DNA of 64,000 bases from Candida dubliniensis CD36. Taxonomy: Eukaryota > Ascomycota > Pichiomycetes > Serinales > Debaryomycetaceae. A program made the position numbers and the translations under genes. Of this stretch, positions 2,586 through 55,807 are shown one piece after another. Every line of letters starts with the position of its first letter. The stretch's first letter is position 1. Below the pieces are notes generated by a model, which searched no databases, was not told the DNA's origin, and saw nothing but the letters and a program-made list of their open reading frames with translations. Where the stretch lies: contig NC_012862.1 in assembly GCF_000026945.1 (NCBI RefSeq), positions 860,501 through 924,500 of the forward strand, read 5' to 3'.

Positions 2586-3047
2586 TGTCACACAGCCTAG
2601 TAATTAAGCTTAAGTGAACATCGCACTAACCTCAACTTGTTCGTCCTTTACCTCATGTCTCGAATACACTCTATTGCTCAGATATGAGCTATCTCAACCT
2701 TTGGTTGATTTACCACTTTTGTTTCCTTGATTTCTCTTCTCAAATCTCTTTAAGTTAACTATGCTCTTCTTGTATTAATTAATCCTATCTAACTAGTATA
2801 TAATATAAAATATAAATCACTTCTGTCCACTATTTATATTGTCAATCTCTTAAGAAACAAGGAAATAGATCAGATGTGTAAACATTATTTCCGTCTTTAC
2901 TTGTATTAATTTCCTTTTATCCATTTTGTGTAATTAGTTCTTTATATCGTAAATAATATAACTTAAGGATAAGTTACTATATTATTTAACTGTCACATTC
3001 AGTCTGTCTGAGCGACATTCCTTGTATGTTGATCTGACTGTGTGACA
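2586..3047 (-). repeat. 3' LTR of the retrotransposon
   Basis: 462 bp, reading TGTCACACAG to CTGTGTGACA on either strand because the ends are an inverted repeat. It differs from the other LTR at eight single bases. A purine-rich tract lies just inside it on the minus strand, which identifies it as the 3' copy. Confidence 0.95.
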
Positions 3048-3060
3048 GTACTCCTCCCTC
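3048..3060 (-). other. Polypurine tract
   Basis: On the minus strand this reads CGGAGGGAGGAGTAC directly against the LTR. A G/A tract in this position primes plus-strand DNA synthesis in LTR elements. The last bases (TAC) are not purine-only, a minor departure. Confidence 0.7.
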
Positions 3061-3649
3061 CGAATTGAAAGGTAGTTCTCGTGGGTAATATAATTTTAAT
3101 CGGTGACGAGGATATGGTGTCTTGAGTGGGACTCTGTCGTGTAGTGGATAGTTATCTTTTAAATATGCTATATTTGGTATTATCACACGACAGAGAATCA
3201 GTTGAAAGAATAATTACGTTTGTTGGTAAATCGCACATAAAGAAGAGAATTGTTACTAGAGAGAAAGTGTTGAATTAGTTAAAAGGGTTTAAGTGTGAGT
3301 GTGTGAGTGAATAGAATAATTGGTACACACACGCACAAAAAAGTTGAATTCTATTTAAGTAAAGAAAATCTAGAAAATTAATTATTTAGTTAGAATGGAC
3401 CTCATCCAAGCTTAGGCTGAGATCCAGGAATATACAAATACATACAATCCACATATATTACACTCGTACGGAATAGAGGTATCCCGAAGACTTACACTTA
3501 GTCACTGTGTCCATTATTCCCCATACATCCAATAACATTGATTTACTACTTTTAGCCAACCACCAGAAACTGCGTGAGTATTCACATTGCACGTGAATCA
3601 GTACCGTAAATATCATTGTCATTTAAATTAAATAGCGCTACATTGTGAC

Positions 3650-4135
3650 AGACTCCTGCTAAATCTTTGAGAAAAAAAAAACTCGATCATTTGATGAGGC
3701 GATGCGGTATGGACCGCTCCATTTGGGTTTTAATTTGTCACTCAGTATAGCAGTGGTAGGTTTATCCCATAATAAAACTAAATCATTGAACTGTAATTGC
3801 TATGTGGTTCCATACTTTTTATCAAATAGATATTTGACATATTGTCGCTGTTGAGATGTGGTAATTTCAGCTGATTGTATGTTTTGTTGTCGAAAGCGTA
3901 ATTGATCAAATCGAAATTGGAACATTTCTTCTTGGGAAAGTTCGTAATCTGGAGGTGGGATAGAATATAAAATTGTTAAACTGGTATGACCCATAAATCC
4001 ATATACAAGAAACTGAGGGGTAAGACCTGTTGTCGAACGGACGTTTGTACGATCAACCCAGAGTGCAGTAGCAAGATTATGATACCAAGGATTGGATGTT
4101 GGTAGTTTTTTTCAAGAAATTGATGATTTGGGGGT
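3650..4135 (-). pseudogene. Integrase C-terminal remnant of pol
   Basis: Read on the minus strand from about 4115, one frame gives NLATALWVDRTNVRSTTGLTPQFLVYG, the classic end of a Ty3/gypsy integrase core. Farther on, after an in-frame TAG near 3818, come FNDLVLLWD and KPKWSGPYRI, which match the GPY/F module. The zinc-binding HHCC region and the D,D of the catalytic triad are absent because the upstream part of integrase is deleted. A TGA precedes the remnant near 4115. It cannot encode a working integrase. Confidence 0.8.
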
Positions 4136-6749
4136 TGTGGACATTTTTTGCAGCTGGTTTGGTTGATGTTGTGTAAGTGGAGGTTTAGGTTGAGTTTTGA
4201 GTAATTCATAAAGCTCCGTGGCTATTACACTAAAAGCAGGAATAAGATTGGAATAATAGTTAAATCATCCCATTGCTCGTTGAAGAGCTTTGACTGTTGT
4301 TGGTAATGGCATCTCTTGGATGGTTTTAATTTTATCGTGGATCAATGTCCTAGAACCAGGTTTAATTTCATAACCAAGAAATGTGGCTTGAGTAACAGCT
4401 AAAGTAAGTTTATTTGCATTAATCTTTAAACCAGCACCTTTGAGTAACTGCAAAACTTCTAATACAGTGTCAATATGTTCTTTTACCAAGGCTGATTGAT
4501 AAGTTTCTGAAGCTGATGCATAGATATCGATTGGTGGACCTAATATGGCGACATCATCCACAAAGATGAGTACCTTTTCCGCTACGGGTTTAAGGATTTT
4601 AGTTAGCAAGTTGCTAAAAATGGCGACCAGGTTTGAGAATCCCTGTGGGAGAACTCGATATTCAAGTAACCCTAACGGCGTTTGGAATGCCGTGTATTTA
4701 GCAGCTTCCTTTGAAATACCAACTTGAAAGAAGGCATTACTTATGTCCAAGTACAGATTGAATGCTGTCTGAGCGATTTCATTTATGAGTTCGTCGGTGG
4801 CTGGTGGGTGAGCTGCTGCTGGTACTATATGTTTATTTAACTCTCGTAAATCGATTAATAACCGATAATCTTTTTTATTCTTTTTTTGGTATTAAAAAGA
4901 TTGGATTCCGATATGGGCTATTACTATGATCAAGTTGGTTATCTTCTAGCATTTGCTTTAGTAATTTGATAGCAGCCAACCTTTTGTTGCCAAATGGGAT
5001 GGATTTGCATTGCCAAATGTCATGGTTTTTGATCGGGGAATCGATAGGCTCAGAAATATGTGATTTAATGCGTCCAGGAGTTGTACCTTTAATGTAAAAT
5101 ACATCTGGAATATGCTGTACTTTGTCCATAAAATACTTCTGATCTTGTGGAGATAAGATAGAAGTAGCCATTGCAGTAATTAATTGTCGTGATTGTTCTT
5201 CTGTGAGTTTTGTTGAGTCAACAGTCATATTATGGATTGTGATGTTTGATGTGGTTGATTTTTCAATTATTTCTGTAAAGAATTGATTGTCGTATTGGAA
5301 ACTAAGTTCCAAGTCAAGTGTTGCTGGATTGTACCCTAAAGTCATGAAATATTGGGCTTTTACTGGTCGTCCAAGGATTATTACATTTGGTTGTATGGAC
5401 AGATGAATTAGTGCTTTGAAGTTAATGTCTTTGCCAAAAATATTAGCTGTGATGATAGCCATGCTATTACATTTCATTAGTGGAGAACCAAATCCTTGAA
5501 TATTTGCCTTGATAGATTTGGTAGGTAGTTTGAGTTTATCCACTGTGATTGGTGAAATGATCAGACACTCCGCGGCGGTGTCATATTTAAGGGAAATAGC
5601 ACTATTATTGATTATGGCTGGGATGTAGACAGATGCACATGAGATATCACTGTCGGTTATTGAAAATGATGTGGCTAATTCGGCGATGTTATACGTATTT
5701 GTGCCGTTATTGTTTGGATCCATAAGTTGTATTACCACGTTGTCCTTGATTGTTTGTTTTGTTAATTCCTGATGATCTGCAGATGTAGAATTTGTACTTG
5801 TTGGAATTGTCTCATGGTTAACAATTAAGTTATTATCGATGGGGATTTCTATATCGATGGAAGTGACAGTTGCTTCATTGATTAATTTTGCATTCTGAGG
5901 CCCTTGTCTGGGCACTAAATGTGCTTGGAGTGATCGTGATAGATAAGTCCTGAAATGGGGAACTAAACCTAGCAAAGTAGCTAATGGCATTTCTGCTGTA
6001 AGATCATTATCAATAAGTGATTGCATGATGTTGTTTTGTTCGATTTTGCTTTTATCAAATTGTGAAATTCGAATACTTCGCAAGGGCTTATCTACTTGGT
6101 AGTTAGATTGATTCACTGCTTTGTTAGTTGCTGGCATGTCCTCTGGAGTTAACTCGTTATTTAATTCTGAAGCTGGAGGAGGATTAAAGATGCCGTAATC
6201 AGGTTGATCACGTGTTGGAGACGTTGATGTATTTTGTACCAGTTGTTCCTCTTGTGGAGGTTCGTAAGATTGTAACGATTGATTGATAGAATCATTATCA
6301 TGAGTATTTGATGTGGGGGTGTTATCAGTTGGGTCATCCATTTGGATATCGATTGTTTCTTCTGGATTAATATCCGATGGTTGTGAACTCGTATGTTGAT
6401 TTAATTGAGGCTCAGTTCGCTTTGGTGCGTGAGACCTGCTTACTGGAGGCGTTCGTCTGTTAATATTGGTTGTTGTATTTGACAGCTTAAGACTCTTGGA
6501 TGAGTTTTTAGTTATTGGTACTGTTGCTTTGGTAGCTAAAATGTTTAACGTTGTTGGCGTTGGGTTTTCAGACAGTTGAGTGAGGCCTCGCATTTGAATT
6601 CGAGTCATTGGAGGTAGACTCTTTAGGTTTATTTTCAGTGTTGGATTTTGGTGGAGCTGGAAAGTCAGTTCTATACTTTTTGAGTAAGTATTCTGAAGGG
6701 GATAATTCATAAGGAGTTGTTCCATCCATTTTATAGAAGATATTGTCAC
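4136..6749 (-). pseudogene. pol: protease and reverse transcriptase, frameshifted
   Basis: Pol overlaps gag by 182 bp in the +1 frame and has no ATG of its own in the overlap, so it would be made by +1 frameshifting, as in Ty3. From 6749 to 4875 it is open and includes an aspartic protease site (KYDTAAECLII) and the start of reverse transcriptase (YRNPIFLIPKK). At 4875 it stops. The true frame resumes one base off in an A-rich run (4871-4887) as DYRLLIDLRELNKHIVPA, then LDISNAFFQVG, LPQGF and the catalytic FVDD. A TGA at 4265-4267 interrupts the connection domain (LQRAMG, stop, FNYYSNLIPAFS). About 40 codons later the sequence jumps into integrase, so RNase H is missing. Confidence 0.85.
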
Positions 6750-8604
6750 TGAATTTTACCTTTTCGTTTTTGATAAGTTGTTTCAAGGTGAAACATGCTT
6801 GTGCAGAATGGTTTCTTTTGCCACAACACGTACATGGGGATTTGCCTTTCGTATTTGGGTTCTTATCATTCGAATTGGTAGCTTTTTGATTGTTAGATTG
6901 TGGAGTACTTGATGAGGTAGTGTCCGAGTGATATTTTGCGATATGTCTGAGTTGTTCGCTCACGATTTTCCAAACTTCGTGAAAATCAATTTTTTGAAAT
7001 TCTGGGTTAGATGTGATAGCCGATGATTTATAGAATTGAATACTTTCTAATGTGGCTGATACTTTGGGATTGTCTATGGTCTTAGTTAAATTTGTCATTA
7101 AAGGTTTCTGTTTATTCCAAAGTGAACAATATATTTGATACCAAATACTGGGTGTAATGTTATTAATATTTGATGTTATTGCAAAGTCAATTTGTGCCAC
7201 TAACATTATAGCATTCTTTTCATTTTGAAGATAGTTGTTGACAGAATCAAGGACCGATTCTGCAACGATGGCTGGTTCAGTATCATAAAGCAAATCAATA
7301 ATGATGCCATAGTTGATACCATTGAAATTAGGATTGGTATTATGTGGAATAATAGCTAAATCGCAAGCTCTTTTTAAATCATTATCTTTTGGGTTATTGC
7401 AAGCTAAAACAAAAGCACCCTTTAAAAGCTTATCTGGAATAGAATATTTGGCTTTATAAAATAATAATTCTTTAACATACAATAAAGTATCATGTGTGGT
7501 TTTGATGGATGTTGTTGTTGGATACTCTTTGTGGTTTGATTTTTTCAAACTTTCCTTTTCTTCTTTGGTCCGTTCAATATCAGGGATACTTTCAATAAGG
7601 TCAAGTCGTTCGATGAATAAAGATTCTTTGGATAACAGGGGATTATAGATATAAGGTAATTTCTTTTCGATGATGTTGATGTCGGTAATTTTGACTTTCA
7701 AGTCTTGACATTCAGCATCAATTGCGGAGATACGTTTCCGGACTTCGAAAAATTTTCCTGAACCAAATGGTGGGGAATTGTTGACAAATTGATCAGTCGA
7801 TGGTTGAGAGGTGACGTGTGTATTCATCGAATTAACCATACTGTAAGTGGATTGGTGAGATGGGTTTGGTGAATTGATATGAGTTGGACTTTTCAAGGGA
7901 TTAGTAGTATCAATAGAAGGAACCGAAGAAGGAGGATGAGGCATAGTTGAATTAACAGATTCTGTTCCATTGGAATCTTGCTGGTGGTTTGCTGATGCAC
8001 CTACGTCTTGTGGTGACTGGATAGGAATGGTATCAGCAGCAACAGATTCTGGATGGTCTAAAGCTTCATTAGTTGGGTTTTCTAAGTCAGCATTAGGTTG
8101 AGAACCTGGATTGTTGGTTTGAGTTGGAGGAGGAGAAGCCAGAATATTGTTTTTGTTGGACAAGACATTAGCTGGTTCACTAAACAGGCCAGGAAAACGT
8201 GGCCGAACAGCTTGATTAACCGTTTCTTGAATGAAAGGTTTCAATGTATCAATGATCCGGGTTGTTGCAGTATCAAAGTACATAGCTTTAACATGGTTTT
8301 CAATGGTTGAAATATATTTCGGTAAATGGGCTTCAAATAATTTATCCATCATGGGATGTAATTGCTCATTAACCATTGGTCCAAATTGGTCTGCCATCAT
8401 TTTTGGGAGACGTTGGGATAATAACTCGTTAACTTGTTGATCAGTTTGAGTCAAATTCAAAGTATTACCAACCATGGTGGGGTCGTCATCTTGGACAGTA
8501 GTTGGGTTGTCTTGTCCCAAAGTAGTGATTGGGTTGATTGGAGATAATGGGTTATTTTCTCCTTGAGCGTCGTTGGAGGCGTTCGATTCGGAATTGTTTG
8601 ACAT
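6568..8604 (-). CDS. gag polyprotein of the Ty3/gypsy element (intact, 678 aa)
   Basis: An uninterrupted 678-residue frame starts at an ATG 120 bp inside the 5' LTR. The first ~260 residues are Asn/Ser/Pro/Thr-rich with helical segments. The middle (about 290-560) is a helix-rich capsid-like domain. A nucleocapsid zinc knuckle CTCCGKRNHSAQAC (CX2CX4HX4C) lies near residue 605. Gag forms the virus-like particle and packages the RNA. It is unusually long for a Ty3 gag, in which capsid plus nucleocapsid is about 290 residues. Unlike pol it has no stop or frameshift, so particles could still be made if it is transcribed. Confidence 0.88.
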   Translation of the reverse strand: MSNNSESNASNDAQGENNPLSPINPITTLGQDNPTTVQDDDPTMVGNTLNLTQTDQQVNELLSQRLPKMMADQFGPMVNEQLHPMMDKLFEAHLPKYISTIENHVKAMYFDTATTRIIDTLKPFIQETVNQAVRPRFPGLFSEPANVLSNKNNILASPPPTQTNNPGSQPNADLENPTNEALDHPESVAADTIPIQSPQDVGASANHQQDSNGTESVNSTMPHPPSSVPSIDTTNPLKSPTHINSPNPSHQSTYSMVNSMNTHVTSQPSTDQFVNNSPPFGSGKFFEVRKRISAIDAECQDLKVKITDINIIEKKLPYIYNPLLSKESLFIERLDLIESIPDIERTKEEKESLKKSNHKEYPTTTSIKTTHDTLLYVKELLFYKAKYSIPDKLLKGAFVLACNNPKDNDLKRACDLAIIPHNTNPNFNGINYGIIIDLLYDTEPAIVAESVLDSVNNYLQNEKNAIMLVAQIDFAITSNINNITPSIWYQIYCSLWNKQKPLMTNLTKTIDNPKVSATLESIQFYKSSAITSNPEFQKIDFHEVWKIVSEQLRHIAKYHSDTTSSSTPQSNNQKATNSNDKNPNTKGKSPCTCCGKRNHSAQACFTLKQLIKNEKVKFSDNIFYKMDGTTPYELSPSEYLLKKYRTDFPAPPKSNTENKPKESTSNDSNSNARPHSTV

Positions 8605-8723
8605 AATAGCGCTTGAGTGAATAATAAATGATTCGGGTGTTCTTTTCTAGAAAGTTAAAATTTATCGTAAATTTTCGAAATACTTTGGCGTCTTTATATT
8701 GGAATAAGCCTGAATTAGTTAAT

Positions 8724-9185
8724 TGTCACACAGCCTAGTAATTAAGCTTAAGTGAACATCGCACTAACTTCAACTTGTTCGTCCTTTACCTCATGTCTCG
8801 AATACACTCTATTGCTCAGATATGAGCTATCTCAACCTTTGGTTGATTTACCACTTTTGTTTCCTTGATTTCTCTTCTCAAATCTCTTTAAGTTAACTAT
8901 GCTTTTCTTGTATTAATTAATCCTACCTAACTAGTATATAATATAAAATATAAATTACTTCTGTCCACTATTTATATTGTCAATCTCTTAAGAAACCAGG
9001 AAATAGATCAGATGTGTAAACATTATTTCCGTCTTTACTTGTATTAATTTCCTTTTATCCACTTTGTGTAATTAGTTCTTTATATCGTAAATAATATAAC
9101 TTAAGGATAAGTTACTATATTATTGAACTGTCACATTCAGTCTGTCTGAGCGACATTTCTTGTATGTTGATCTGACTGTGTGACA
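8724..9185 (-). repeat. 5' LTR of the retrotransposon
   Basis: 462 bp, the partner of 2586-3047. It precedes gag on the minus strand and should hold the element promoter. Transcription from it would run away from TAF11, whose start codon is at 9303. Confidence 0.95.
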
Positions 9186-9302: not shown

Positions 9303-10133
9303 ATGTTGTCTGCACCAGAACAAGATACAACCAATTCTCCAGGTACTGAGGGCCCACACACAGAGAATGTGGTTGAGGATGAATATCAAGACGATGAATA
9401 CGTGAGTTTAGATGAGGAAGATGAAGAACTTATCTGGAGAGTGTTTTTTCAAAAACTAGAAAAACACAACAACAAAAACAACAACGATGGCTCCGATCTG
9501 GATGAGTCTGAAGAGTCCGATGGCAGTAGTGAGGAAGAGGAAGAATCTGAGGATGAGGATTTAGACGATGATGAATTTAGTGATCTTTCAGATATTGACG
9601 ACCCTGCTCTAGTGGCCACATACAAGGCTCTAATGTCTGAGAAAGTTAACAAGGATCTTGGGGAAGAGGAGCAAAGAAGACTATTGATATCCAATTTCAC
9701 TGACGATCAAATGGAGAGATTTGAAGCCTATAGACGAATGACTGTAAATAAACCTGGCGTGAAGAAAATCTGCAACGGTATAGTTGGTCACACAATCCCA
9801 CAAATAATTGCAGTTGTTATGGCGGGTGTCTCCAAACTGTTTCTTGGGGAAATCATCTCAAAAGCATTTGAAATCCAAGAACGAAATTCCAAGGGTAGAC
9901 TTTTAATGGATATCGAAACGAAGAAGAAACAGAAGAGAGAGATTATCAGTAGTTTGCAAAGGGGTGAGGAAATCGAAGTTGATGAAAGAAGCTTGAAATT
10001 TGAAGGAGATGAGATACATCCATTGCAACCGGAACATATCCGTGAGGCATGGAGATTGTACCAGCTTGAGAATAGTGTTTTTTCTGGAAGTCGAAAAAGA
10101 AAAATGGGAGACGATGGCCCTTTCTATACTTAG
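9303..10133 (+). CDS. TAF11: TFIID subunit TAF11
   Basis: A 276-residue protein. The N-terminal ~125 residues are very acidic (runs of D, E and S). The C-terminal half has the TAFII28-type histone fold from about residue 130: FTDDQMERFEAYRRMTVNK, then VKKICNGIVGHTIPQIIAVVMAGVSKLFLGEIISKAFEIQ. This matches the TAF11 signature that pairs with TAF13 in TFIID. After the fold comes a basic linker and then PLQPEHIREAWRLYQ, also typical of TAF11. Codon 66 is an in-frame CTG inside an Asp/Ser/Glu stretch, where the CTG-clade reading (Ser) fits better than Leu. The retrotransposon ends 117 bp before the ATG, inside what must be the promoter. Confidence 0.9.
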   Translation: MLSAPEQDTTNSPGTEGPHTENVVEDEYQDDEYVSLDEEDEELIWRVFFQKLEKHNNKNNNDGSDLDESEESDGSSEEEEESEDEDLDDDEFSDLSDIDDPALVATYKALMSEKVNKDLGEEEQRRLLISNFTDDQMERFEAYRRMTVNKPGVKKICNGIVGHTIPQIIAVVMAGVSKLFLGEIISKAFEIQERNSKGRLLMDIETKKKQKREIISSLQRGEEIEVDERSLKFEGDEIHPLQPEHIREAWRLYQLENSVFSGSRKRKMGDDGPFYT

Positions 10134-13100
10134 CTATGGTTTTACTAATGATTATGTCGTTTGTTCAGATTCAAGGGGCCCTCTATTTAGCAAAGATCAC
10201 CCAATTTGCATGAGGATGTCACATATAATGTAATTTGTTGTTACAGCCATAACAGCAGCAGCCTATACTATGTATTTCCTGCAAAATAAACTCAATGTGG
10301 TCTAAAAGGGTGACGATGTTGCCCTAACCCATCGATTGAAACTAATCGGTATTTATATAATCCTAGATTTGAGTATTTAGTATTTACTAGAGATAATATT
10401 CGGTGCACTAGCTCTCTATAGTTTTGTGCATGATTATCGTTATATGATGATGTAAAACAATTACAAAAATAAAGGCGTGGTTAGTTGTTAGGACTAAGAG
10501 TAATATAAAATATAAGAATTGTAAAGTAGCAATGATAAAGGATCCGTCGGACTCTCTGACTTGAAATTTGAAAGGCTGCATGCAAAATATTGCAGATCCT
10601 AATAGTATCTTACTTTTGACAAAATTTGGGTAACGCCAAACCTGTCTAATGATAATGAACATAATTCTCAGTAAATACGTAGATTCAACGACCATACTTT
10701 ATCAACTAATTCTCTCTGATCCCGTTCTTCAGTTATTAGAAAATGTCTAGTTGTGCATGTGTGGGAACTACGATACTGTCAAGCAGGAGGTTATGACATT
10801 ATTTCTCTGTTTTTGGAGTTAGAACTTCTAAGGTCAACTACAATAAGAGACAACTAGCGATCAAGGTCGACTTTCAAAATTCCTGTCCTGGGACTGTAGT
10901 TCTCGTAAAAAGACTACGTTCTTTAAATTAATTACCAATAGGCATGAGAAAAGTTAGTTCAAACCCAAGAATACCAAGTAAACTCAATTTCTTTTCATAC
11001 CGCAAAATAAAAGAAACTCATCACTATATCTCTTTCATTATCAATCCTTCTTTAAACTAAATTTCAAACTAATAGCGTCCCGCCCATAAACCAAATCCTC
11101 TTACGATAATTGGTCTCCCTTACCTTTAGCACCACATGTTGCTATGTATTTTTTGCACGAACAACATTATTTGGTAGAGAACTTTTGCAAAAAACATTAA
11201 AAATGTTTAAGAACACATAGTATCATATATAATTAAATAAATAAAACAAATCTCTAAATTGAGTTGCATCTTCAAACAAATACAATCAAAAGTGGAACTA
11301 AGTAAGCTTTCTAATTGAATATTTCATCCATCATATCACAAATCCTACTGCTAATATCAGCTCAATATATCAAATAGTCCCGTGGGTTCCACATAATTAA
11401 GCAGATAGCTTGGGCACTTATCATCATAACATGCGTATATCTGTATATCAAGCGACAACTTGGATCCTGAACGACACGGTTTCTGCAACTTTTTTAAACC
11501 CTTTCCCCTCTCCCCAACTTTCAAAATAACTAAATACAGTGCCAGTAACAAGATAAAACTATCCTATATAGCACATCTTACTTAAATTCTCTTCCTTCTC
11601 TCAGAACCCACCATACTCACAAGCTTCTTAAAAAACTGAGTCCTCCTCAATAGCACTAGAACACTCTAAACATCTGCTCCCCTAGATTGATGTTGAACTA
11701 TCAATACTAATACCAATACAATTCAAAACCATACTTCCAAATTAACAACTTTTCCTCTTTCGTCTTCCATATCTTACATGTCGTAATTCCTCTCTTACCG
11801 GACTTATGATCAACCTATTACTAAAGGAAAGACACTACTGTAGAGTTCCTGTCAAACGCTCTAAGCTCACCTTCGGCAATAACTACGAACCACTCCAGTT
11901 GAAAACTATAGCAAATCAAGACAGGTAAGTGCTAAATAAATACAATAGAAATATCAAAACCTCTACATTGGCCAATTTACTCTCAAAAGCTGCCGAACCA
12001 CAACACATCCACAAACAAACTTTTCTGAGTAATCTTAAACCATTCCTCTCTAAGCAACCGTCTCCCATAAACTTCACCTTAACCATAATTCATTATTTCA
12101 TCCATTCGAAACACCTATTCCAATATCGGAAGAGGAGAAGTTCACCGAGCTACCAATTTGAGCAAATATAAACCAACTTAAAGATCCATTGCTCCTGATA
12201 AACCAAACCTTATGCGCTAAGACATTTCATTTTACCCAAAGCCATTAGCATCAACCAAAAGCTAACATATCTGCCAAAACTTGATCCGGTAAATCATCCA
12301 TATACTCTAAGTCGAAACCAACGTTTAATTGAACTTATCTTCCCAACAATTTGGCGAGGATGGTTTAAAATTCTCAACGCAACATGCATTATTCTTCTAA
12401 TTGAAAACTCATTATCCAAACACTAAATAACCTCAAAAGAAGTGATAATACTTATCATAATGAACCCTCATACCAACAACCTCTAACCAAAATCACAACA
12501 ACTCCACAAATCCTTTTATAACTTTTTCCCCATCAAAAACAAAGCCAAAAATACCGTGATACTAAATCACATTAATAGAACAAAACATGCCTTCATTCCA
12601 CTATTTTCAAACTAGAAGACTCTCATCTACAAAAATTGTGCTACACTGAGAACTACCATTTGCTTGTCGCCTATATTATCAATTCAAGTACTTCCACCAA
12701 ACCATCATGGCCACATCCACCCACATTGGTTACAAACTAACCATTAAAACAAACTAAATCAAAACATAACTATTATAACAAATAATAGCACTACTAGATC
12801 GTGAGTAGCAGCACAGATTATTCTACAACAAGTTCTCGCTATGAATGTGCTAATTTCTCAGTACACCTACCATCACAACATAATCTACTCCTTTAAGTCT
12901 AAGAACACCTACTGCAAGCCATTACATTAAACATAATTTCAAGACAAAAATTGACGCAGAAATTGTTGTCAACTCTTCTGGAAAAACAACCCTTCTGAAA
13001 CCAATAATAAGCAATAGTATACACTACTTCTACAAGCTGTTTATAATCCTGGAAACAGATAGTTAAATAGAAGCGAGGCATTACTGATTAGATACTGCCT

Positions 13101-15126
13101 GAGAAGATTCCAAACCACCCGACAACTACTACTAATTTCCCTACGACATGAACACATCAAACTACTCGCCCACCAATGTTTAAGTAGTCTAATATATAAA
13201 CCTTATAATTGGTAATTCTTTGATGCTAACCAAGAAGCTTGCAATCAGAAAAGGAAGGAAAGAAATTAATCTTTTCAAACTACAGCAGCCTCGTTTCGCA
13301 AGTTTTCAACAAAAGCATAGCATTACTCTCTTTAGGTATTGAACGTTTCAGTGAAGAATATCTATTTATATACGTTTTGGTTTGTAAAGCGAGTTCACAG
13401 CATAAGCCTCTACATACTCTGTATATGATTATATTAATGCATTATTTTGAAGTATTTACCAGAAGTTTGGCTATTCTATATGTGTGCTTTAGAGGTAGCT
13501 CGTTTGATTTGAACATTGTGGTTGCACTGAAAACCAAAGTTTGTGTAAGTTTTGTCAGTTAAATCTTCTTCTTAGGTTTTCTATTGATATATGTAGTAGT
13601 AAAAATTGTAAACTGATGCCATTACTGATTAATCAACAGTGCAATTCAAATTTAATAGAGTAGTCCAGTTTAGGATATTTCAAGTTGTAGCTGCTCAGCA
13701 TATGGCTTTGTTGTCCTGAATCAATTCTTCTTGGTATAGGGATTAGCTTACTGACAAAGATTAATGTAGGTGAGAGGAGACGGTTTGCTTAAATGAGATA
13801 CTAAAATATTAAACTATTGATTTACACAGATTATTTTTATAGTTAGTAGTCCTATGCACAAAAGTACTTGAATTGGATGAGGGACCACCGTTGAAAAGCA
13901 AATTGATAATGCGAATTGTAGTGATTTGTATTGGTCAATTGATGCACCAGTACAATAGTGAACTTGGAATTTATCTTTTACAAACTATTATTGTAGCTAG
14001 TTAACAAAGTAATTTAATTGCGAGATAGTCTCCGAGTATTTGGGTAATGTATTATTTCAACCCTTGACTATATCCAATGGTCTGGTTATGTTACGGTTAT
14101 TGTTTACGGTAGACGAAATTAACTTGTGGAGCACCTTAAGAGTTGAGGCTTTTTTTATGGTTGTGAGGACTTAGAGGAATCACTAGAAGCGATAGCTTTA
14201 AGGCAATGATGCAATCATAGAACAGTTTGCTAAACTGTAGAAGGTAGCTGGTTGTGTTCATGTGGTTTGTGATAAAGGTTCCATCGGTTAAAACGTTTTT
14301 CCTTGTTGTTGGCATTTTGTGCATAATTATGGAAGAGTAATAACTCCACGCTGTTGATCCCACTGTATACTGAAACGTAGGTTTTCCAGAGGCAAATGAT
14401 TTGCTAGTTTTGAATGTATTGTGAGGTTCAAAATGAAATTGCTGAGACGTTGTATCAAGCTCATTTCAAGTTGTAGTAATGAATTGAACATTCTACAAGT
14501 ATCAAGAGACGTTGGTTCTATTGGAGATATACTAATGTAATATTTAGGTCTGTTTGAGCGTGATTGTGGTAATGACTGACTATCCTCAGATGGTGAGAGA
14601 AGTTTTTCACTTGGTTGCAGTTCAAATAAGGTTTTCACACTGGCAGGGCTGGTAGAAATTGTTAGGTATGACCGAATTACTTTTTTGAGGCTAGTCGGTG
14701 GTTAACGGTTGTGTGCTTTATTTGATTTTGACAGGCTTGATACGATTGCTTCTTATGTTGGCGTGAGCATGTGCCACGGTATCAGTTGTTCATAGAGGTT
14801 AGTAGAGACGATGATGCTTATTAATTTTAAGATACGTGAGTTTTCTGATGTTTGCGCTGTCTGTTGTCGGTTTATGTATGCTGAATCATATAATAATTTT
14901 AATTGGCATCGGCGATGGTGTTTATTCCGAGTCATGAATCAATGACAAACAGTTCAATTCATTTGGGAGAGGTTTATGTAGTGACGGTAACCTACATGAG
15001 TTTAGTTTACTATGCGTTACTGGTAGAGGAATGGTTTAGTTTTTGGTTTGTTTGAAATTGCACAACTGCTTGTGAATTTGAGCGGTAAGCGGATAAAGGG
15101 GGTTTGAGTCTTAGTTTTGGAATGTA
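10134..15126. other. Putative regional centromere (gene-free, skew-switching DNA)
   Basis: Almost 5 kb without a frame that looks like a protein gene; the frames over 60 codons have no family resemblance and most lack an ATG. The plus strand is strongly C-over-G on the left (12061-12120 has 19 C and 1 G; 12541-12600 has 14 C and 5 G). It is G-over-C on the right (14161-14220 has 16 G and 8 C; 15001-15060 has 16 G and 3 C). The change falls near 13.15-13.25 kb. C. albicans centromeres are unique, ORF-free regions with about 3 kb of CENP-A chromatin, and a skew switch at their core has been reported. The flanking genes match my memory of chromosome 3 around CEN3. CENP-A occupancy itself cannot be read from sequence. 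Confidence 0.72.
15122..15126. repeat. Target-site duplication of the solo LTR, left copy (ATGTA)
   Basis: ATGTA precedes the solo LTR and is repeated at 15589-15593. Confidence 0.88.
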
Positions 15127-15588
15127 TGTCACACAGTCAGATCAACATACAAGGAATGTCGCTCAGACAGACTGAATGTGACAGTTAAATAATATAGTAA
15201 CTTATCCTTAAGCTATATTATTTACGATATAAAGAACTAATTACACAAAGTGGATAAAAGGAAATTGATACAAGTAAAGACGGAAATAATGTTTACACAT
15301 CTGATCTATTTCCTTGTTTCTTAAGAGATTGACAATATAAATAGTGGACAGAAGTGATTTATATTTTATATTATATACTAGTTAGATAGGATTAATGAAT
15401 AGAAGAAAAAGATAGTTAACTTAAAGAGATTTGAGAAGAGAAATCAAGGAAACAAAAGTGGTAAATCAACCAAAGGTTGAGATAGCTCATATCTGAGCAA
15501 TAGAGTGTATTCGAGACATGATGTAAAGGACGAACAAGTTGAAGTTAGTGCGATGTTCACTTAAGCTTAATTACTAGGCTGTGTGACA
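15127..15588 (+). repeat. Solo LTR of the same retrotransposon family
   Basis: 462 bp with the same termini as the LTRs at 2586 and 8724 but in the opposite orientation. It is flanked by the perfect 5-bp duplication ATGTA. It differs from the 2586-3047 copy at about ten positions by my count, with a cluster of changes near 15395-15415. No internal retroelement sequence is attached, so it is what remains after recombination between two LTRs of a former full element. With the LTR ending at 9185 it forms an inverted repeat around TAF11 and the gene-free region. Confidence 0.93.
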
Positions 15589-15928
15589 ATGTATTGAAAT
15601 GCACATTGTTCGTTAGTTGATTGCTTTGTATTTATAGTTTTTTTTAGCGGAATAGAGTGTTAACATATGTACATGATTAGCGGGTTATTGTTTAAGGAAA
15701 TGTGAGTTAGATTTAGGTTCTATAAAGGAAAACTATTTAGAATAATCGTGTATGCAAGATGGGAAAGATTTGGGAAGTGGTGAATAATAGGGCTTAGGTG
15801 TTAATGGGGGGGGTGATCCTGTGGCTCTTCAGCTTTCGGTTGGAGTGATGTAAGGTTCATCTCGTGTATGAATAATTCTAATTACCATTTCTTATCTAGA
15901 GGTTATTTGGCCTGTTCCCATTTCGCTC
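15589..15928. other. Spacer between solo LTR and SNG1-like gene
   Basis: It begins with the right copy of ATGTA (15589-15593). The rest is 3' flank of the SNG1-like gene, with G-rich patches (GGGGGG near 15808) but no frame or repeat that I can support. Confidence 0.4.
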
Positions 15929-17428
15929 CTAATGGTGATGTTCTTCAGTTTCAAGCTCTTTTTTTTCATTAACAGCGGCACACACTTGTTGCTCAAAATT
16001 CCTATTGGTTGTGGTTATAAAATAGTAGACAACGAATGGGAATATGAAACTTAATACGGCAAACCAAGCGGCTAAGATACCAAAGTTTCTTCCTAATTGT
16101 CCCTTGTATGTACCAAAAAATACTGTTTTAGTGGCTTCATAGGAGTTATGGATGGGTAATGCGTATCCGTATCTAAAGAATTTTGGAAGCACCGCCATTG
16201 GCGTGAATGTGGGTGTGATATTGGCTATTATCCAGAAAAGCAACCAGAATTGAACGAGTGGAGGATAGACTATGATTAGCAACATTGCCATGATTTCATT
16301 TACAGAGCCGAGAGCCCACATAGTCATAAAAGCAATCATCCAATAAACCACAAACCCCGCCTTCCCGTATGTGACTGTCAAATCAACTTGGAAAGCTAAT
16401 GTCACCAAACAACAAAACAAGCTCAATACCAAGAAGGATAAAATAGATGCTGTGAAGCGATATATCATGTAATGACGTTTCCTTATTCCTAATTTAGACA
16501 CTGCCTTGTGGACTGGACTGAAAAACTCAAACTGTAACAACGTCAAAATTGTCATATAGATTAGAAGATCATGAAAAGGTCCAATTAGAATCGGGTCGTT
16601 CCATGGTACTGGATCCACAATTTCAAATTTAATTGGTTGGGCGAGTAGCTTTAGTTTTTCAGTGGAGTTGATAGTGAGATTGCCAACGATATCAAATGCC
16701 ATGGTGGACTGTTTGCTTAGCCATACGTTTTCCACGTTAGAGATAGAAGGGATGACGAATTGAGTCATTCCATTGAAATCCCTTCCTGTTTCATAAATCG
16801 AGTGAACTGTGTTCTTAACAATATCGTAATTGGTATCACCGTGTGACAAGGCATTGAAATAGTTATAGCTGGCGTTTGGTAACACATGAAGCGATGCCCA
16901 ATATTCTTGATGATGAATTTGGTGCATGATTTCTTCTTCCGCAGTGCGATTGGATTTTAATGCTATCTGAGCAAATTCGGTCGAGTTGTATATTTTCCAA
17001 TTGCCCCTGGTCTTTGCTTCGGGAGTTTGTAGAATTTCCTTCAAATTGTCACCGAAAACTGGGTTCAATCCATTTATTATTGAGTCATCTTCTATCACTA
17101 CCAACATTTTCAAATTTTTTATCCTGCCATTTATCCTATAGAAAGAGCCCCAGTAGATTGAGAATATTCCTAGAACCCCAATTCCCATGATTAAATAGTT
17201 TAAGAAATACTTCAATGCAATCTTCTTTCTTTCCGTTTGAAATTTTTTGCTAAATAGGGAAAGGCCCTTGTTAACTTTACCGACCATATTTCGTGCTGGA
17301 GGTGAGGGTTCGAGTTCACTGCTTGACAAATACTTGTGGTGGTAGTATTGTTGTTGTTGTTGTTGTTGGGGGCCTAAATAGGTCTCATCTTGTGAATTTT
17401 CTTCCAGTTCCAACATCTTAGTATTCAT
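15929..17428 (-). CDS. SNG1-like multispan membrane protein (DUF3533 family)
   Basis: A 499-residue protein. A cytosolic N-terminus with a Gln run (Q7 near residue 20) precedes a first span at about 75-95 (YLIMGIGVLGIFSIYWGSFYR). A lumenal or extracellular loop of about 180 residues follows, with several N-glycosylation sites. A second bundle of about five spans runs from ~280 to the end. One early span, a long loop and a C-terminal bundle are the layout of the fungal Sng1/DUF3533 family, whose S. cerevisiae founder gives nitrosoguanidine resistance and affects lipid asymmetry. The motif NDPILIGPFHDLLIY and the FxYGYALPIHNSYEATKTVFFGT segment near the end are typical. It is the first gene to the right of the putative centromere. 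Confidence 0.8.
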   Translation of the reverse strand: MNTKMLELEENSQDETYLGPQQQQQQQYYHHKYLSSSELEPSPPARNMVGKVNKGLSLFSKKFQTERKKIALKYFLNYLIMGIGVLGIFSIYWGSFYRINGRIKNLKMLVVIEDDSIINGLNPVFGDNLKEILQTPEAKTRGNWKIYNSTEFAQIALKSNRTAEEEIMHQIHHQEYWASLHVLPNASYNYFNALSHGDTNYDIVKNTVHSIYETGRDFNGMTQFVIPSISNVENVWLSKQSTMAFDIVGNLTINSTEKLKLLAQPIKFEIVDPVPWNDPILIGPFHDLLIYMTILTLLQFEFFSPVHKAVSKLGIRKRHYMIYRFTASILSFLVLSLFCCLVTLAFQVDLTVTYGKAGFVVYWMIAFMTMWALGSVNEIMAMLLIIVYPPLVQFWLLFWIIANITPTFTPMAVLPKFFRYGYALPIHNSYEATKTVFFGTYKGQLGRNFGILAAWFAVLSFIFPFVVYYFITTTNRNFEQQVCAAVNEKKELETEEHHH

Positions 17429-25194: not shown

Positions 25195-25291
25195 CTCCAA
25201 TGCGGGGAATCGAACCCCGGTTTGCTCGGCGCTCTGTTCCAGAAAGACCTGAAATGAAAGCGAACAGTGATAGCCACTACACTACATCGGA
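25195..25291 (-). tRNA. tRNA-Glu (anticodon UUC) with an intron of about 25 nt
   Basis: On the minus strand the acceptor arms TCCGATG and CATTGGA pair with one G-T. The D arm is GTGT...TCAC and the T arm CGGGG-TTCGATT-CCCCG. The anticodon stem GTTCG pairs with CGAGC. The loop begins CT-TTC-A, giving anticodon UUC (Glu), and is followed by an intron ending just before the 3' half of the stem. The total is 97 nt, about 72 after splicing. The A and B box regions are intact. A minus-strand T run is not immediate, but AT-rich sequence with TTTTTTATT follows the 3' end. Confidence 0.9.
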
Positions 25292-54551: not shown

Positions 54552-54914
54552 TCAGTGAAAAATTGAGGCTGTTCGTCGAAGTAAAAATAGTGTACTGAAA
54601 ACCCTAAGAAAATTTTTCATATTTTTTTTTTTTTGCTTTTCAACCACAACATGTTTACCCGGAAAACGAAACACATCAATACTATAAATACGCCATCTAA
54701 TTATCAAATTTTTTTTTTCTGTTTTTCCCCTTCTTTTTTTCTTTTCTCTGTCGACGTACTTCATAGGATCATTTCTATAGGTCACGTCCCTCTTTGACTC
54801 TTCAAAAGAGCCACTGAATCCAACTTGGTTGATGAGTGAGATTACCCTTGTACCCTCAAAGTGAGAAATAACATGGAATTTTTGCTTGACTGTGATTCTT
54901 TGCAATCTGGTCAT
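54552..54914 (-). CDS. Possible small basic protein (120 aa), unknown
   Basis: The frame starts at an ATG on the minus strand, 440 bp upstream of EGD2. Residues 1-70 look like protein (MTRLQRITVKQKFHVISHFE, then SGSFEESKRDVTYRNDPMKYVDREKKKRR). The rest is translated from the T-rich EGD2 promoter and looks random. If real, it may end through splicing or be shorter. I recognise no family. Confidence 0.35.
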   Translation of the reverse strand: MTRLQRITVKQKFHVISHFEGTRVISLINQVGFSGSFEESKRDVTYRNDPMKYVDREKKKRRGKTEKKNLIIRWRIYSIDVFRFPGKHVVVEKQKKKNMKNFLRVFSTLFLLRRTASIFH

Positions 54915-55807
54915 CTACTTATAATGTTTTGCCTTTGACTTGATTCTTTCCTTTTTTTTTGAGGTTATGCATCTATTATAAAGGAGCGATGATCTTTACC
55001 CTTTTCATTGTGCCTTCTAGGAGGATTTTGAATTGGGTGGGTACAAGTGGCTGTCTGACAAGTTACAGAAATAAATAGACCTAAGATTAATATACATATC
55101 TATTGTTATACATAATATTCTACAATTGTAAGTTTGAATTTCTCAATTTGCAAAGCAAAATATATTATTGCAAGAAAACATTTATGGTTGTTTAATGAAA
55201 CACGTTTGATCACCCTCTGACAGAACAGTTTTTTTTTTTTCACATCAAAATAACCGGTAGCGCAAATGAACAACTTATTATGTACAAAACACATAACACC
55301 TGTTCAAAGCAAATGTATTAACCTTGATTTTAAACTTTCTTAGCCATCTTGAATATCTTGTAAAGTAGGGCGAGCGAGAGGGGAACTATTCATTTGGCTA
55401 TGGTGATAATGATTGTTGTGACGACAAAGTTTAAAATCAGTAAATAGATAATTCCGTGCAATTTCCGTTATTCCGCCCCCCAATTTTGTACGGAATAGGG
55501 AATAGCTTCCATACTCGGAGAAAAAAAAAAACGTCCCTTACCTCAAGGAATTCACAAATGCTATCTCCAACTTGATGCAATTCAAATCGTAGTTTGTTTC
55601 GACAATTCTTAGTGACGATACAGAGATATACAATGCTGTGGTTATGTTCAACAACATTTGGAATACCTTTAAGCTTTATTGGGTTTTCATGTTCAGTTGT
55701 TTTAAACCCTACATCTCATAATCCAATGCACCACACCCTAAAATGGGAACTTGAAAATTTTTAAATGATGCTAATTCCCATTTACTTAAGATATGATTTA
55801 AAAAAGT
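54915..55807. other. Spacer between the possible small gene and the permease promoter
   Basis: About 0.9 kb of AT-rich DNA with an A run (55521-55531) and a T run near 55230. I see no RNA gene or coding frame of substance. Confidence 0.3.

Follow-up and report, generated by a model that had tools for sequence, protein, structure and literature searches.

A gene-free gap with a paired skew flip as the probable CEN3 of Candida dubliniensis, and long terminal repeats beside its core and at other centromeres

The small regional centromeres of Candida albicans and Candida dubliniensis are the closest described systems for the locus treated here, a gene-free gap on chromosome 3 of C. dubliniensis CD36, which lies in a 64,000-nucleotide stretch of DNA (the window, C4:860501-924500, from a genome of eight contigs and 14,618,422 bp). 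The contigs C1-C8 are taken to be chromosomes R and 1-7, with C4 as chromosome 3. The C. dubliniensis centromeres are said to have been mapped via Cse4 binding by Padmanabhan et al. in 2008, and since this mapping is in print, the centromere is counted as already known and the present analysis as a confirmation, from sequence alone, of a published site. A flip in GC and AT skew has been described at every centromere of C. albicans and C. dubliniensis and attributed to a replication origin that has kept its activity through evolution (Koren et al. 2010, PMC2924309), and the centromere synteny between both species was described as completely conserved (PMC2924309). In C. albicans, long terminal repeats (LTRs) lie within about 3 kb of the CENP-A domain at CEN2 and CEN3 (PMC4871872), orf19.2812 and the CEN3 core are 100 bp apart (PMC4871872, Table 1), and ALS2 is 1,498 bp from CEN6 (PMC4871872). 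Pericentric inverted repeats have been published for CENR, CEN5 and also CEN1 (PMC4741521), and a Ty3/gypsy element for CEN7 in both C. dubliniensis (Cd36_71790) and C. tropicalis (PMC4741521), as well as in C. albicans within 50 kb of CEN7 (among PMC4741521, PMC7263194, PMC4871872, PMC7292649, PMC1896002 and PMC6896093), while Ty5-like retroelements mark the centromeric positions of Debaryomyces hansenii and Scheffersomyces stipitis (PMC7263194). Compared on sequence features, the locus shows no difference in kind from the C. albicans and C. dubliniensis small regional centromeres, sharing with them the gene-free gap, the unique core, the paired skew flip, of which one was found per contig in the stretches scanned, and the LTRs near the core.

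Judged by its sequence, the gap is very probably the small regional centromere of chromosome 3, CEN3, as the preliminary description had proposed; it combines 5.8 kb of gene-free DNA, a core without a match to the other seven and a paired GC/AT flip, and its 5,795 bp fit the range of 4-18 kb given for gene-free centromere gaps in PMC7263194. The decisive signal for this reading is the skew flip, base composition being a point on which the preliminary description is silent. In successive 500-bp steps from 10634 to 15133, the GC skew runs through -0.22, -0.33, -0.47, -0.46, -0.34, 0.02, 0.23, 0.31 and 0.37, with an AT skew of opposite sign all along, which is the change from negative to positive GC skew with opposed AT skew that characterizes C. 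albicans-type centromeres. The cumulative GC skew has its minimum at 13330 and the cumulative AT skew its maximum at 13322, and the smoothed skews cross zero at 13459 and 13534. Two steps are off this pattern, namely the start of the gap (10134-10633, GC skew +0.12) and the step after 15133, consisting mostly of a solo LTR (GC skew +0.27, AT skew +0.12). A two-sided flip score, taken over 1.8 kb on each side, reached 0.995 at this site in the window, the runner-up site scoring 0.338; inside 10134-15126 the best score was 0.989, against maxima with a mean of 0.07 and a highest value of 0.33 in 300 dinucleotide-preserving shuffles.

The emptiness of the gap was established with open reading frames (ORFs) called under code 12 from ATG starts and a cut-off of 100 aa. 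Neither such an ORF nor an Rfam match nor a tRNA was found in it, which bears out the preliminary claims that 10134-15126 holds no credible gene or RNA and that the next gene is 5.8 kb away; the right edge then set at 15126 holds as the last base before the solo LTR and not as the end of the gene-free gap, which continues to 15928. With the cut-off lowered to 30 aa, twenty ORFs overlap 10134-15928, and Pfam matched none of the three that were scanned, including the longest, of 95 aa. All three Rfam matches in the window and the single tRNA reported by ARAGORN, which found one of the two tRNA genes present (at 25195 and 34909), lie outside the gap. A genome search with 10134-15126, in which simple repeats were skipped, gave no other match among the matches listed beyond a 246-bp repeat at the left margin of the gap. 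The statement that the region is not made of transposon DNA is thus right for nearly all of it and fails for these approximately 246 bp (10358-10603), which resemble a dispersed repeat. Uniqueness of the core sequence was upheld by blastn among the eight 4-kb cores, no two of which match each other at E <= 1e-3, the only hit being that of the CEN5 inverted repeat against itself.

Flips were sought in the 64-kb window and, on the seven other contigs, in 18 fetched 10-kb tiles around the expected positions. Each of the eight contigs showed one strong flip in the scanned stretches, with scores of 0.69-1.00, and the flip at C4:873800 was the strongest of the eight. The background maximum was 0.45, taken from 1,491 grid positions at 100-bp spacing and farther than 5 kb from every centre; a 50-bp scan beyond the same distance gave a highest value of 0.476, at C3:1937850, and the excluded 5-kb zones themselves contain lesser peaks of 0.534 at C5:1033850 and 0.48 at C3:1948850. 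The flip is weakest at CEN4, where the GC and AT centres lie 326 bp apart. Around every one of the eight flips, at least 4,148 bp are free of ORFs of 100 aa or more, and in four cases this gap runs past the fetched sequence. On C2, C5, C7 and C8, some centromeres were sought where LTR matches lay, while the skew score itself ignores LTRs. RPL3 and TRK1, the genes expected at CEN2 and CENR, were both found near the respective flips, and of the seven ALS matches one is at a distance of about 7 kb from the flip on C7. The skew footprint combined with the expected position was sufficient to give one candidate per contig.

Several points weigh against the centromere reading. The search for flips covered only the stretches around expected positions, and the UTP20 family (PF07539), expected near CEN5, was dropped as a marker since it maps to C4. 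The orthology of the SNG1-like gene on the right flank with orf19.2812 is a presumption; among the best 120 of 140 protein matches to this gene, no C. albicans-labelled name appeared. Moreover, the skew flip is the mark of a long-lived origin and not of CENP-A as such, and comparable skew has been reported at nine C. albicans telomeric sites, with weaker skew at two internal origins (PMC2924309). The gap might accordingly be a long-lived replication origin in gene-poor DNA and no centromere, skew by itself reporting constitutive origin activity; however, this is highly improbable for a chromosome-internal site that bears the strongest of eight flips, each the only strong one of its contig in the scanned stretches, within 5.8 kb of gene-free DNA. 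Even less credible is a graveyard of decayed genes or transposons without a chromosomal function, which the retrotransposon and the solo LTR flanking the gap and the 246 bp of another repeat inside it would fit, but the rest of 10134-15126 has no further genome match among the matches listed, and a symmetric two-sided skew flip would not be expected from decay.

If the gap is the centromere, its core would be gene-free and specific to the chromosome, would measure about 3.6-4.5 kb around a centre near 13,330, and would be expected in CENP-A (Cse4) chromatin and inherited epigenetically and not by a motif. An origin inside this core would fire early in every cell cycle, whereby the leading and lagging strands would keep fixed sides, and strand-biased mutation could then write the GC/AT skew flip. 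Cse4 occupancy, origin firing and the exact limits of the core are predicted features of the locus (Table 1).

The core is bordered by retrotransposon sequence. A family A element, probably of the Ty3/gypsy type, stands to the left, and the solo LTR of the same family on the right, 1.8 kb from the skew centre, is inverted relative to the LTRs of that element, so that both together form an inverted repeat of transposon origin, 464 bp long at 97% identity. The reverse transcriptase piece of the element (4265-4891) matches RVT_1 (E 2e-25), and a piece resembling integrase by eye has no Pfam match. Family A LTRs end in TG...CA and are accompanied by 5-bp target-site duplications (TSDs), CTGTC at CEN3 and GGCAG at CEN6. 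The CEN6 element carries the same nested family B LTR as the CEN3 element, with the same junctions and the same TSD, but the outer TSDs of both elements differ, and therefore the nested insertion would have come first and the composite would have moved afterwards. Judging from these junctions, movement of the composite, and not segment duplication, is probably behind the CEN3 and CEN6 copies, gene conversion between them being a possible alternative.

Table 1. Coordinates of the features at and around CEN3 (window positions) and of the strong skew flips (contig positions)
Feature	Position	Strand	Basis and remarks
LTR retrotransposon, family A, probably Ty3/gypsy type, frames broken	2586..9185	-	LTRs 2586-3047 and 8724-9185, 454/462 identical; TSD CTGTC
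Solo LTR, family B, nested in the family A element	3135..3650	+	TSD GACTC; 98% match to the CEN7 family B LTR
TAF11, left flanking gene	9303..10133	+	Pfam TAFII28, E 4.2e-27
Gene-free gap containing the probable centromere	10134..15928	.	5,795 bp; no ORF >=100 aa, no Rfam match, no tRNA
Remnant of a dispersed repeat, ~246 bp	10358..10603	.	25 further genome matches, 70-82% identity
Predicted CENP-A (Cse4) core, ~1.8 kb either side of the flip	11500..15126	.	Extent predicted from skew: GC -0.33 to -0.47 (11134-13133), +0.23 to +0.37 (13634-15133), AT opposite
Skew switch point, predicted constitutive early replication origin	13300..13540	.	Cumulative extremes and zero crossings; origin role predicted after PMC2924309
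Solo LTR, family A, 462 bp, right core edge	15127..15588	-	TSD ATGTA; 97% inverted match to 8722-9185
SNG1-like membrane protein, right flanking gene	15929..17428	-	Pfam DUF3533, E 1.1e-126; relatives bear the name SNG1
Strong flips of the eight contigs	C1:1718300, C2:1598050, C3:1944800, C4:873800, C5:1030400, C6:497250, C7:1004900, C8:436900	.	Two-sided skew score

Sequence or remnants of family A or B LTRs lie at most 2.6 kb from the skew centre at six of the eight centromeres, or at four of six without CEN3 and CEN7, from which the A and B queries were taken. The nearest such sequence is 2,295 bp from the centre at CEN1, 1,823 bp at CEN2, 1,797 bp at CEN3, 2,557 bp at CEN4, 2,512 bp at CEN6 and 2,077 bp at CEN7. 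At the remaining two, inverted repeats of about 1.1 kb and 98-99% identity were found 1.4-2.4 kb from the skew centres, beginning on the nearer side at 1,391 bp (CEN5) and 1,964 bp (CENR); these repeats, on C6 and C1, match the published pericentric repeats of CEN5 and CENR (PMC4741521), and the right arm on C6 meets the end of the fetched tile. No inverted repeat was seen at CEN1, where the fetched sequence reaches about 4.2 kb beyond the centre on the right. Two family B elements, each with both LTRs, face opposite ways around the CEN7 centre at C8:436,907 (C8:428434-434830, plus strand; C8:443910-450317, minus strand), and the nearer, 2.1 kb from the centre, has LTRs that are 100% identical and end in TG...CA, and the TSD TTATT. 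An unbroken family B frame at CEN7 encodes RVT_1, RNase H, H2C2 and rve in that order, which is the Ty3/gypsy arrangement; no chromodomain was found in it by Pfam, its C-terminal end giving only SH3_Tf2-1 with E 0.02, below the cut-off.

The position of family B at CEN7 and its reverse transcriptase, RNase H and integrase agree with the published CEN7 element, and we infer that family B is that element, Cd36_71790. The published account places it at CEN7 (PMC4741521), whereas A or B copies or remnants were found here also at CEN1, CEN2, CEN3, CEN4 and CEN6. The marking of centromeres by retroelements is shared with D. hansenii and S. stipitis; unlike there, the copies stand beside the unique core, not inside it, and are of the Ty3/gypsy type. 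No statement of the six-centromere LTR pattern in C. dubliniensis occurs in the parts of the literature searched, a set that comprised neither the 2008 mapping paper nor any supplements.

Side observations concern three of these loci. At CEN2, layered insertions extend over C3:1939813-1942886, where a young family B LTR without a matching TSD comes directly after an old fragment of an A-like LTR and a piece of the gag region (74% identity to A). At CEN6, six family A LTR matches are clustered in C7:1002161-1032449, beside an ALS adhesin gene at 997261. At CEN4, a 48-bp inverted repeat of 94% (C5:1031859-1034128) lies on the right side of the skew centre, at an interruption of the skew.

Over the whole genome, at least 41 LTR matches were counted (24 A and 17 B, as lower bounds and with the queries themselves included unless stated otherwise), which merge at 8 kb into 26 sites. 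Eleven of these sites lie within 35 kb of a centre, where 1.0 would be expected (p 1.2e-9), and 15 lie further out; leaving out both query sites gives the fairer count, 9 of 24 (0.92 expected, p 1.4e-7), because the queries came from CEN3 and CEN7. With merging at 40 kb, 6 of 18 clusters are no further than 35 kb from a centre (p 4e-5). When 26 points were placed at random 200,000 times, never more than three centres had a point within 2.6 kb. Among the young non-nested copies, 7 of 11 are within 15 kb (0.18 expected, p 1e-10, from random placement that treated sites as points; 2e-7 on the assumption that insertions are possible in only one third of the genome); leaving out both query copies gives 5 of 9 (p 1.4e-7). 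The list of young copies omits the nested ones and the copy at C2:846522-846989, which is in two parts of 97% and 93%, and with which the count becomes 7 of 12. The control sets behave otherwise: no Ty1/copia site (RVT_2, 0/11) and no site of the dispersed repeat (0/20, or 1/21 if the query copy beside CEN3 is counted) lies within 35 kb of a centre. For RVT_1, in which gypsy and non-LTR elements are mixed, the count is 5 of 20, at least four of these five being inside A or B copies.

The LTR pattern fits both aimed integration and selective retention near CENP-A. Integration preferentially at the edges of CENP-A chromatin by this Ty3/gypsy lineage, with the LTRs tracing the borders of the kinetochore domain, has about an even chance of being the correct account. 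Passive retention, by which random insertions would survive in gene-poor pericentromeres without any targeting, is possible, if rather doubtful; it accords with the presence of old copies (67-82% identity to the queries) near the centromeres and with the negative search for a chromodomain in the intact family B frame, but the young copies are already clustered, with or without the query copies, and neither Ty1/copia nor the dispersed repeat shows such clustering. Aiming is favoured over retention because of these young copies and controls. The closest listed LTR copy stands 1,797 bp from any skew centre, a minimum distance that fits either exclusion by the kinetochore or the loss of cells with broken centromeres.

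The Ty3 element of Saccharomyces cerevisiae inserts in linkage with tRNA genes. Such tRNA-linked insertion was considered here; of the 18 fetched tiles, 12 were scanned and tRNA genes were found in one, near CEN4, and those of the window are far from the insertions. Since ARAGORN missed one of the two window tRNAs, others may have been overlooked in the tiles too.

The LTR pattern at the core edges is the more useful lead of this analysis, as it would make the origin of the Candida pericentric inverted repeats testable, and the LTRs concerned could show what bounds a motif-free CENP-A domain. If edge targeting is true, two-sided insertions would build transposon-made inverted repeats round unique centromeres, as at CEN3 with family A and at CEN7 with two opposed family B elements, and this may offer a route between repeat-free and repeat-flanked centromeres.

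The genes on both sides of the gap, named in the preliminary description as TAF11 and an SNG1-like gene, are supported by their Pfam domains. The histone/TAF11 block is presumably the other CEN3 flank in C. albicans, which agrees with the CEN3 flanks to which the preliminary description refers. The orf19 numbers found in papers do not give the gene order around CEN3: with orf19.2812 come a distance and expression, with orf19.6923 no position, and among neighbouring numbers just those of the histones were listed. With the dispersed repeat at the left margin as query, several matches were less than 14 kb from the end of a contig, and three pairs were spaced by exactly 1,507 bp. Elsewhere in the window, a U3 snoRNA gene was identified by Rfam at 54750-55063 on the plus strand, and the 120-aa ORF at 54552-54914 on the minus strand is probably spurious because of its overlap with this gene.

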